Of a stretch of DNA of 64,000 nt, positions 58,830 through 61,867 are shown one piece after another. The stretch is from an uncultured Candidatus Thioglobus sp. (GTDB lineage Bacteria > Pseudomonadota > Gammaproteobacteria > PS1 > Pseudothioglobaceae). The stretch covers positions 1-64,000 of the forward strand of contig CAJQSO010000017.1 of the NCBI GenBank assembly GCA_905614365.1, read 5' to 3'. The notes beneath the pieces are model-generated. The model saw nothing but the letters and a program-made list of their open reading frames with translations. It ran no database searches and was not told the DNA's origin. The translations under genes were made by a program, and so were the position numbers. The stretch's first letter is position 1; each line of letters begins with the position of its first letter.

Positions 58830-59027
58830 ATGCTTTGCTGGACCGACTCACTTGAAATAGCCATCTCACTGGAAGAAACCTCTCCTGATACAGACCCTAA
58901 AACTATTAACTTTGTTGATTTACGTCAACTTGTTATAGATCTGGAAGATTTTGAAGAAGGACAAAGTAAGTGCGGTGAAAGAGTACTTGAAGCTATCCAA
59001 ATGAACTGGATTGAGGAAAGAGAGTGA
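58830..59027 (+). CDS. iscX: Fe-S assembly protein IscX
   Basis: 65-residue acidic protein that binds the cysteine desulfurase IscS and iron. Matches the E. coli protein along its length: CWTDSLEIAISL, DTDPKTINFVDLRQLVIDLEDF, and CGERVLEAIQMNWIEE. It overlaps tolB by 4 bases and is separated here from the isc operon. Confidence 0.95.
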   Translation: MLCWTDSLEIAISLEETSPDTDPKTINFVDLRQLVIDLEDFEEGQSKCGERVLEAIQMNWIEERE

Positions 59028-60304
59028 AATATTTTAAATTTATTTTATTGTTTAATATATTATTTTCATTTCCAGCAAATGCACTTTTAGAAGTAAATAT
59101 TTTAAAATCTAAAGAGGCTGCATTTCCTATTGTTATTGCTCCTTTTGAGGTTATTAGTGACTCAAAAGAAAACATAGATATTGCCAAAATTATTAGAGAC
59201 AATTTGAATAGGTCAGGTCAATTTAGTGCTTTAAGTACTGACGCACTAGTTACAAATCAAATTGATTTTAATTTTTGGAAAAAACATAAAAAAGACGCAG
59301 TTGTTTTTGGAAAGGTTGAGCAAGTAAGTCCAAAGGTTTACAACATTTATATTTATATTTACGATGTCTTTTCTGAAAAAAGCTTATATCAAAAAAAAAT
59401 TACTGTTAGTAACACTGGATTTAGAAGAATGGCTCACTTCTTAAGTGACAAGATTTATTATGTACTTCTTGGGCAAAAAGGCTCATTTAATACAAGACTC
59501 TCATATGTAACAGTTACTGAAAATAATAGTGGTGGCAGAACTTATAGACTTCAAATTTCAGATTCTGATGGAGAAAACCCACAAACAATTGTCAGGCAAT
59601 CAAACCCAATTTTGTCTCCAGCATGGTCAAAAGACCAGAAGAAACTTGCTTATGTTTCTTTTAAAAATAATAGATCAGAAGTTTTTGTTATGACCCCATT
59701 TTTAAAAACAATTCCTATTAAGCTGCCAAAATTTGATGGTATTGCTTCTTCGCCAACTTTTCATCCAAGCGGCGAAAGTATTGCTTTAACAATTTCAAAA
59801 CAAGGAAATAAAGACATATATCTATATAACTTTAAATCTAAAAGCCTTAAAAGACTAACTAAAAATATATCAATCGATACTGAAGCTAGCTTTTCACCTG
59901 ATGGAAATAGTATTGCATTTACATCGAATAGAACAGGCCAAGTTCAAGTTTATATAAAAGACCTTAAGTCTGGAAAAATAACTCGAGCTACTTTTGAAGG
60001 TCGGTACAATGCAAAACCAGTTTTTTCTCCTGATGGAAAAGATTTAGCCCTTATTCATAGAGTTGGCAAAGATTACAGAGTTGCTTTATTAGATATCAAA
60101 TCTAGAGACTTAACCGTAATGACTCGAAATAAATCAGATGAATCTCCTTACTTTTCACCAAATGGAGGTATGATTATTTTTTCAACTAATAGAGACAACA
60201 AAGGAATTTTGTCTATAATTTCACTCTACAATAACCAAATTGTTGAATTAATGCAAAAAACCGGCGAAGTTAGAGAACCAACTTGGTCAAATTATTCAAA
60301 TTAA
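59024..60304 (+). CDS. tolB: Tol-Pal system protein TolB
   Basis: Periplasmic protein of 426 residues with a signal peptide (about 1-21), an N-terminal alpha/beta domain (about 22-160) and a C-terminal beta-propeller with repeated SPAWSKDQKKLAYVSF / SFSPDGNSIAFTSNRTG units. It bridges Pal and TolA during outer-membrane constriction. Followed by pal after 10 bases; tolQRA are not in the window. Confidence 0.96.
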   Translation: MKYFKFILLFNILFSFPANALLEVNILKSKEAAFPIVIAPFEVISDSKENIDIAKIIRDNLNRSGQFSALSTDALVTNQIDFNFWKKHKKDAVVFGKVEQVSPKVYNIYIYIYDVFSEKSLYQKKITVSNTGFRRMAHFLSDKIYYVLLGQKGSFNTRLSYVTVTENNSGGRTYRLQISDSDGENPQTIVRQSNPILSPAWSKDQKKLAYVSFKNNRSEVFVMTPFLKTIPIKLPKFDGIASSPTFHPSGESIALTISKQGNKDIYLYNFKSKSLKRLTKNISIDTEASFSPDGNSIAFTSNRTGQVQVYIKDLKSGKITRATFEGRYNAKPVFSPDGKDLALIHRVGKDYRVALLDIKSRDLTVMTRNKSDESPYFSPNGGMIIFSTNRDNKGILSIISLYNNQIVELMQKTGEVREPTWSNYSN

Positions 60305-60314
60305 GGAAAAAAAA

Positions 60315-61163
60315 ATGTCAAAAAAAATTCTACTATTGTCAAGTGTTATCTTTTTAAGCTCATGCGGTGCTAATAATATTTCTGAACTGGGTGACAAATT
60401 TCTTGATTTAATTAATCCAAGTGATGCTGCTACTGAACAAGCAGACCTTGGTGGTGATGCCACTCTAGTTGCAATGGATGAAGATGGTGGATTTACTATT
60501 GATGAGCTTGAGCAGTTATCTAATGATGAGTTGATAGCTATCGCGAAAGAGAAAGGCTTAGGAGATCTAATAGTCCTTGATGCAGATGGTAACCTTCAAA
60601 ATAGAGATCAAATTATCAATGCTATTGTTGAAAGTGGTGATTTAATGGATGGTAAGACAGCAGAACTAGAATCATTATCAGATGATGCGCTTATAGAGAT
60701 GATCAATGCCAAGGGAATGGGCGACTTAGTTGTTCTTGATGCAGATGGAAATTTAGCAAATAAAGAAGAGCTTATTCAAGCATTAATGGATGATGCAGCA
60801 GCAATGTTAGCAATTATTGAAAACTTCAAAAACTCTAGTGATTCTTTTATTCTTTATTTCTCTTATGATGACACTGAAATTGATGAAGTATCTACCAGAG
60901 CTATTATTGAGCACGCTAACTTTATGCAAGATAATCCTTCACTAAGCTTGAGATTAGAAGGGCACGCAGATGAACGTGGAACACGTGAATATAACCTGGC
61001 TCTTGGTGAAAATCGAGCTTTAAGTGTGAAAGAGGTTTTAAGCCTTTATAACCTTGATGATAGAATTCTGGTCGTAAGCTATGGTGAAGAGTCTCCAGTA
61101 ATGGTTGGAAGCAATGAATTGGCTTGGGAAGAGAATCGAAGAGTAGAATTCTTCTACTACTAG
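60315..61163 (+). CDS. pal: Peptidoglycan-associated lipoprotein Pal, enlarged
   Basis: Outer-membrane lipoprotein that ties the envelope to peptidoglycan. 282 residues, about 110 more than usual. Lipobox LSSC (Cys17). The C-terminal OmpA-like domain (about 170-282) is normal, with LRLEGHADERGTREYNLALGENRA. Between them lies an acidic region with two 43-residue repeats (64-106 and 117-159), seen at 60504-60791. The repeats resemble Rho_N/SAP-like helical folds. An AAGGAAAA site precedes the ATG. Confidence 0.92.
   Translation: MSKKILLLSSVIFLSSCGANNISELGDKFLDLINPSDAATEQADLGGDATLVAMDEDGGFTIDELEQLSNDELIAIAKEKGLGDLIVLDADGNLQNRDQIINAIVESGDLMDGKTAELESLSDDALIEMINAKGMGDLVVLDADGNLANKEELIQALMDDAAAMLAIIENFKNSSDSFILYFSYDDTEIDEVSTRAIIEHANFMQDNPSLSLRLEGHADERGTREYNLALGENRALSVKEVLSLYNLDDRILVVSYGEESPVMVGSNELAWEENRRVEFFYY
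60504..60791 (+). repeat. Two tandem repeats coding an inserted domain in Pal
   Basis: Repeat units encode residues 64-106 (ELEQLSNDELIAIAKEKGLG, then LDADGNL) and 117-159 (ELESLSDDALIEMINAKGMG, then LDADGNL), period 53 residues. Codon choice differs between copies, so the duplication is old or under protein-level selection. Confidence 0.85.
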
Positions 61164-61213: not shown

Positions 61214-61867
61214 ATGAAAAAGAACCTACTAATATATTTTATCTTTATAGTCCCTATGTTAATTACTCATGGGGCCTATGCAAGTGAAGGTTTAAATACT
61301 GATCTTGCAATCTTAAAAATCAATAAAAAAGTCAAATCCCTCAATAATGAAATTCTATCATTGAAAGATGAAATTGAACTAATTAAAGAAAACCAAAGAT
61401 TAAACTCTGCAAAAATTTTAGAACTATTTCAATTAATTGAATTAAACCTTTCTAATAATAAGCAAGTTGAAAAAACAACTCAAAAAATTCAAACTAATAG
61501 CTCTGATAAGCTATATTTAGATGGAAAAAATGAATTTCTTCTTGGAAATTATGACAAGGCAATTACTTTATTCATAAACTTTGCAAAAGGGTCTTCCAAT
61601 TCATCCAATATAAAAGACTCAAATCTATGGCTTGCAAGGGCTTATTTTGAAAATAATGAATATCTAAAATCTAAAGATACATTTTTAGACTTTCAATTTA
61701 ACAATAAGGAGAATTCAAAATATGCGAATTCTATGTTTGAATTAACAAGGGTCTTGATTAAGCTGAATGAAGTTAATGAAGCTAAGTTATTGTTATTAGA
61801 TATGATTAAACAATATCCTAGCCACTCTTTGATTAATAAAGCAAACCAATTACTTTTAGACCTTTAA
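61214..61867 (+). CDS. cpoB: Cell division coordinator CpoB (YbgF-like)
   Basis: Periplasmic protein of 217 residues: signal peptide (about 1-23), a coiled coil (about 30-75; NKKVKSLNNEILSLKDEIEL) and C-terminal TPR repeats (about 95-215; YLDGKNEFLLGNYDKAITLFINF). Links peptidoglycan synthesis to Tol-Pal. Gene order tolB-pal-cpoB is standard. It precedes pabB by 4 bases. Confidence 0.92.
   Translation: MKKNLLIYFIFIVPMLITHGAYASEGLNTDLAILKINKKVKSLNNEILSLKDEIELIKENQRLNSAKILELFQLIELNLSNNKQVEKTTQKIQTNSSDKLYLDGKNEFLLGNYDKAITLFINFAKGSSNSSNIKDSNLWLARAYFENNEYLKSKDTFLDFQFNNKENSKYANSMFELTRVLIKLNEVNEAKLLLLDMIKQYPSHSLINKANQLLLDL

Follow-up and report, generated by a model that had tools for sequence, protein, structure and literature searches.

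A predicted folded module inserted in the lipoprotein Pal of Ca. Pseudothioglobus is dispersed among other exported proteins

Results

The pal locus and its two repeats

We analyzed a 64,000-nucleotide window (contig CAJQSO010000017.1, assembly GCA_905614365.1) from an uncultured Candidatus Thioglobus sp., in which a 282-residue open reading frame lies between tolB and ybgF/cpoB (Table 1). The protein begins with a lipoprotein signal peptide and ends with an OmpA-like domain (Pfam OmpA, E=3e-12), identifying it as the peptidoglycan-associated lipoprotein Pal, although the full-length protein scores 110.8 bits against the curated TIGR02802 cut-off of 125.4. Two repeats occupy the region between the lipobox and the OmpA-like domain. 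They align over exactly 43 residues with 24 identical (56%) and 35 similar residues (E=2e-16), and the two modules carry net charges of about -8 and -9. Both modules occur in the 94-96% identical Pal proteins of sister species and are under purifying selection, so that they are not a sequencing or chance effect. The original prediction, that Pal carries a duplicated inserted domain at this locus, is thereby confirmed as an observation.

Table 1. Features of the pal locus, in positions of the 64,000-nucleotide window
Feature	Positions	Strand	Residues	Evidence
tolB (context)	59024..60304	+		TIGR02800, E=3.8e-121
pal, lipoprotein with two inserted modules	60315..61163	+	282 aa	TIGR02802 and OmpA domain; gene order tolB-pal-ybgF
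Lipoprotein signal peptide and lipobox (LSSC, Cys17)	60315..60365	+		sequence; S15-S16-C17 invariant in 14 Pal proteins
Module 1, type I, predicted Rho_N-like helix-extended-helix module	60489..60638	+	59-108	structure prediction and repeat alignment; sum dN/sum dS 0.029 across species
Module 2, second copy	60654..60797	+	114-161	56% identity to module 1; sum dN/sum dS 0.144 across species
OmpA-like peptidoglycan-binding domain of Pal	60852..61157	+	180-281	TIGR02802, E=3e-32
ybgF/cpoB (context)	61214..61867	+		TIGR02795, E=4.5e-16

Predicted fold of the module

To better understand the inserted repeats, we predicted the structure of a single module with AlphaFold2, using 20 copies. The model, with a pLDDT of 93, shows a helix-turn-short bridge-helix arrangement and is thus predicted to fold stably, whereas a model of full-length Pal reached a pLDDT of only 62 and supports no claim on how the modules are arranged. 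The closest solved structures found with VIA were the Rho N-terminal domain (Z 6.1, r.m.s.d. of 1.5 Å over 42 of 50 residues) and the emerin LEM domain (Z 5.2), although a Z score under 8 may only mean a common arrangement, and Foldseek alone was not significant (E near 2). At the sequence level, 12 of 25 copies gave weak matches to Pfam Rho_N (PF07498), all below the gathering cut-off, with a best E value of 0.0013 and 13.7 bits against 24.9 for the window module. A PDB sequence search with the module profile returned only short chance matches. The resemblance to Rho_N/SAP folds suggested by the original prediction is therefore reasonable, on moderate evidence.

We also considered a calcium-binding EF-hand or dockerin-like repeat, because the DADGNLxNRDE core contains a DxDGxLxxxD pattern resembling an EF-hand loop, and weak EF-hand matches appeared in the Foldseek results. 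However, position 1 of the loop is not acidic in most copies, a second type of module (type II, see below) replaces the loop by EFGGxxALDPNVPSYEKEL, and the best structural matches are the Rho N-domain and emerin LEM instead of EF-hands. This reading is very unlikely.

Distribution and copy number in Pal

The window belongs to an incomplete 1.14-Mb assembly of a genus whose named members are Ca. Pseudothioglobus and SUP05-cluster records. Of 29 genomes of this genus (numbered with the prefix G in our set, which also covers the genomes of other genera), 18 carry pal with modules, one of them truncated at a contig end, and two (G015 and G028) have a complete pal without any. In one further genome pal is split across contigs, and eight incomplete assemblies gave no pal, so modules are present in 18 of 20 resolvable pal genes. 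Among 54 genomes of ten other genera of the family, we found no credible module, and their Pal matches cover essentially only the OmpA region and its immediate upstream. A sample of 369 genomes of the class gave nothing credible elsewhere. A weak hit in G055 (E 0.006) and one in G121 in a broken frame were treated as chance. In two 1.0-Mb single-contig genomes of another genus of the family, the Pal match is broken by stops (G034, contig C1:495667-496008) or reduced to the last 50 residues (G037, C1:496988-497137), suggesting loss of pal in reduced genomes. Two outcomes named in advance as evidence against the original prediction, the same insert in most gammaproteobacterial Pal proteins and the lack of a stable fold, were thus not observed. 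On a tree of TolB plus the OmpA domain, the two module-free species branch outside the module-bearing ones (support 94/91, midpoint root), consistent with a single gain in Pal.

Pal carries one module in G025, two in eleven genomes and three in G006 and G023, whereas in G010, G013 and G018 a module lies inside the loop of another module. The split outer halves match the intact last module of G023 on both sides. A shifted tandem duplication would give the order A-B-A-B, but the order seen is A-[A-B]-B, so that nested insertion is the simpler explanation, though deletions from a four-module array are not excluded. The inner modules of G010 and G013 group together (88/81), although their hosts do not in the species proxy, so recombination or loss is likely.

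The variable copy number and the position of the modules exactly in the linker would also fit a spacer, in which the repeats only lengthen the Pal stalk between the outer membrane and peptidoglycan, tuned to periplasm width, and copies in other proteins are incidental. This is doubtful, because the modules are predicted to be folded and module 1 is conserved more than the OmpA domain, which has a dN/dS ratio of 0.048 across species compared with the values of the modules in Table 1. As dS is near saturation, these ratios are indicative. Moreover, most of the other hosts described below (the LptA N terminus, the LptD barrel and the ligase loop) do not need a spacer there.

Dispersal into other exported proteins

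Profile searches uncovered modules in genes other than pal, a finding that required the comparison with other genomes. In G008, a single-contig genome of 1,689,404 bp, they lie in a protein with an O-antigen-ligase (Wzy_C) domain, a 525-residue protein beside an MBOAT gene, a 295-residue exported protein and LptM. In G016 they are in LptA and LptD, in G017 in LptD, in G012, G019 and G023 in a marine sortase-target protein, and in G007 and G021 in small secreted proteins. Type II modules share both helices with type I but carry a longer middle loop. Three of the five module-bearing genes of G008 lie in a 62-kb stretch (contig C1, about 597-662 kb, covered by our extracted loci L109 and L110), whose ends hold glycosyltransferase family 25, methyltransferase and MBOAT genes, apparently a surface-polysaccharide region.

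Orthologues of four host families show clean empty sites, indicating that these are insertions and not ancestral domains. LptA of G016 has 237 residues, whereas 22 orthologues in other genomes match only from about residue 95 to 237 and their frames have 162-168 residues. LptM has 115 residues in G008 and 40-45 in the orthologues read. The 295-residue protein of G008 aligns with the G017 orthologue with a gap of about 60 residues exactly at the module and 69-70% identity on both sides. This host (L110:2493-3434) belongs to an exported family without Pfam or NCBIfam match that is present in two or more copies in several genomes (G017 contigs C20 and C38, G029 C52, G020 C5), some in tandem. LptD of G017 has about 105 extra residues in the barrel region, absent from all orthologues that span the site, while LptD of G016 carries two modules after the signal peptide, a different site and hence an independent insertion. 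The LptD match in G024 (C4:708789-711041) is interrupted by many stop codons at low identity and could be a pseudogene, assembly errors or a diverged second copy.

We observed recent copying in G008, in which a 414-bp segment of two modules is 99.3% identical (3 mismatches) between the Wzy_C gene and the gene for the 525-residue protein, 60 kb apart and with unrelated flanks. The insert in the 525-residue protein (L110, about 1351-1404) and the LptD insert of G017 (L105, about 1548-1590) share a proline-rich 5' linker (NNPPLPL..E.EN.E) that the near-identical Wzy_C copy lacks, so either the mobile unit is sometimes longer or host flank was carried along. A DNA search of the 29 genomes with one module found significant copies only in-frame inside open reading frames, with no non-coding or out-of-frame copies. 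No terminal repeat or target-site duplication was recognized by eye at five filled/empty pairs, although the orthologues are diverged and short duplications could be missed, and no transposase was found. Fold energies of nine elements lay within -1.7 to +0.7 SD of dinucleotide shuffles, which rejects a palindrome or hairpin. Searches for a mobile reservoir gave no hit in viral contigs, in phages (type II query) or in plasmids (type I query), and PHROGs matched only at E 0.02.

Selection, direction of copying and compartment

Copies in G008 and G016 mostly differ with dN/dS of 0.16-0.44, but a few within-genome pairs (LptD1/LptD2, LptM/Wzy2) approach 1, consistent with relaxed selection on some inserts. 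In a module tree based on few columns, all type II copies and the LptD copy of G017 form one clade (98/96) with Pal module 2 of G029 at its base, and that Pal module and the LptD copy are 73% identical. Pal is thus the likeliest founder.

All ten host families are Pal, Lpt components or proteins with a signal peptide or membrane segment. A crude hydropathy scan found a signal-peptide-like or TM-like N-terminal segment in all non-Pal hosts but one, the small secreted protein of G021, whose N terminus nevertheless looks like a signal peptide. The Wzy_C insert lies between the main TM bundle and the last two TM segments, where this family has a large periplasmic loop. Four of the eight type II or type II-like insertion sites outside Pal are in Lpt proteins and a further one is in the O-antigen-ligase-domain protein, an enrichment that was noticed after the fact and without a formal test. 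The envelope-only bias may partly reflect tolerance of loops in exported proteins.

Discussion

The insert is best explained as a genus-specific module of 48-60 residues, predicted to fold independently in a Rho_N/LEM-like helix-extended-helix arrangement, which entered Pal within this genus and has since been copied within genomes, as in-frame coding segments, into loops, termini or post-signal-peptide sites of other exported proteins. We place the probability of this reading at roughly 0.7. Our data directly demonstrate the position of the module in Pal, its change in copy number, an arrangement best read as one module nested inside another, independent insertions with empty sites in four host families, the 414-bp near-identical copy in two unrelated genes, the exclusive in-frame placement and purifying selection on the protein. 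In contrast, spread by intragenomic DNA copying from a Pal-type founder, by an unidentified mechanism, is inferred from the tree and the 73% identity. Retention as an acidic protein-protein docking or tethering domain in the periplasm, which could bring LPS-export and polysaccharide enzymes and Pal to a common partner or to each other, is likewise inferred, only from compartment, charge and analogy with protein binding by LEM domains. Nucleic-acid binding as in Rho or SAP is unlikely for a periplasmic acidic module. Because the number of copies per genome is small (at most 8 modules in 5 proteins), ordinary domain shuffling at a raised rate is not excluded.

The interpretation in the original prediction is only partly supported. 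The duplicated, inserted, Rho_N/SAP-like domain is indeed unusual for Pal, whereas the suggestions that it extends reach across the periplasm or adds a binding site in Tol-Pal remain hypotheses. The in-frame spread into LPS-transport and surface-polysaccharide proteins makes a purely Tol-Pal-specific role less likely.

A possible alternative explanation is a selfish protein-coding repeat, a DNA element that spreads for its own sake and survives only where its single open frame matches the host gene and the protein tolerates it, without any function in Pal or elsewhere. The recent 414-bp copy, the module-in-module insertion and the sporadic species-specific sites fit this view, and only one of six frames is open, so that only one insertion frame would survive in genes. 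However, we consider it unlikely because of the lack of non-coding or out-of-frame copies in 29 genomes, the absence of a palindrome, the strong purifying selection in Pal, the retention in nearly all Pal proteins of the genus and the presence only in exported hosts among those seen. More speculative, and also unlikely on present evidence, is a lineage-specific envelope "docking code", in which a module that arose in Pal is being copied by an unknown mechanism into LptA, LptD, LptM and surface-polysaccharide proteins, wiring the Tol-Pal system physically to outer-membrane assembly through a shared or homotypic interaction.

A search of the open-access literature found no earlier report on Thioglobus Pal or on HeH modules in lipoproteins. 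Short coding segments that spread through unrelated genes without breaking them are documented mainly in Rickettsiales and as PARCELs. What looks like a new case of such a spreading insert, non-palindromic, predicted to be folded and envelope-restricted, in a small-genome free-living marine bacterium and with a traceable likely founder, would let one watch protein domains being transplanted. The recurrence in LPS-transport proteins makes a link between Tol-Pal and outer-membrane assembly testable. It also warns that a Pal with a duplicated domain is one outpost of a genome-wide process.

Comparison with known systems

Canonical Pal (TIGR02802) shares the lipobox, the C-terminal OmpA-like domain and the tolB-pal-ybgF gene order, but the Pal proteins described here have about 90-150 extra residues, mostly repeated modules, in the linker. 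The Rho_N (PF07498), SAP (PF02037) and LEM helix-extended-helix domains resemble the module in its predicted fold, on moderate evidence, whereas the module scores below the Pfam cut-off, is mostly strongly acidic and occurs in exported proteins; Rho_N and SAP proteins are intracellular. Rickettsia palindromic elements (RPEs; Ogata et al. 2000, cited in PMC3767692) and the Wolbachia equivalents are short sequences of about 100-150 bp inside pre-existing open reading frames of unrelated genes, and the module resembles them in reaching such genes in-frame, with empty-site orthologues. It differs from RPEs in having no palindrome and no copies outside genes, in its few copies, tandem and nested arrays and predicted folded Rho_N-like domain, in its exclusively exported hosts and in its free-living marine gammaproteobacterial background, whereas RPEs also sit in cytoplasmic enzymes such as DNA polymerase III alpha (PMC3767692). 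PARCELs (PMC2996958) are likewise a repeat protein domain dispersed within genomes with variable copy number and frequent in membrane-targeted proteins and lipoproteins. However, the PARCEL unit is a 25-residue tandem repeat with dyad symmetry found in many clades and in open reading frames of unassigned function, while the present unit has 48-60 residues without dyad symmetry, is found in one genus and is inserted into conserved genes with empty-site orthologues.
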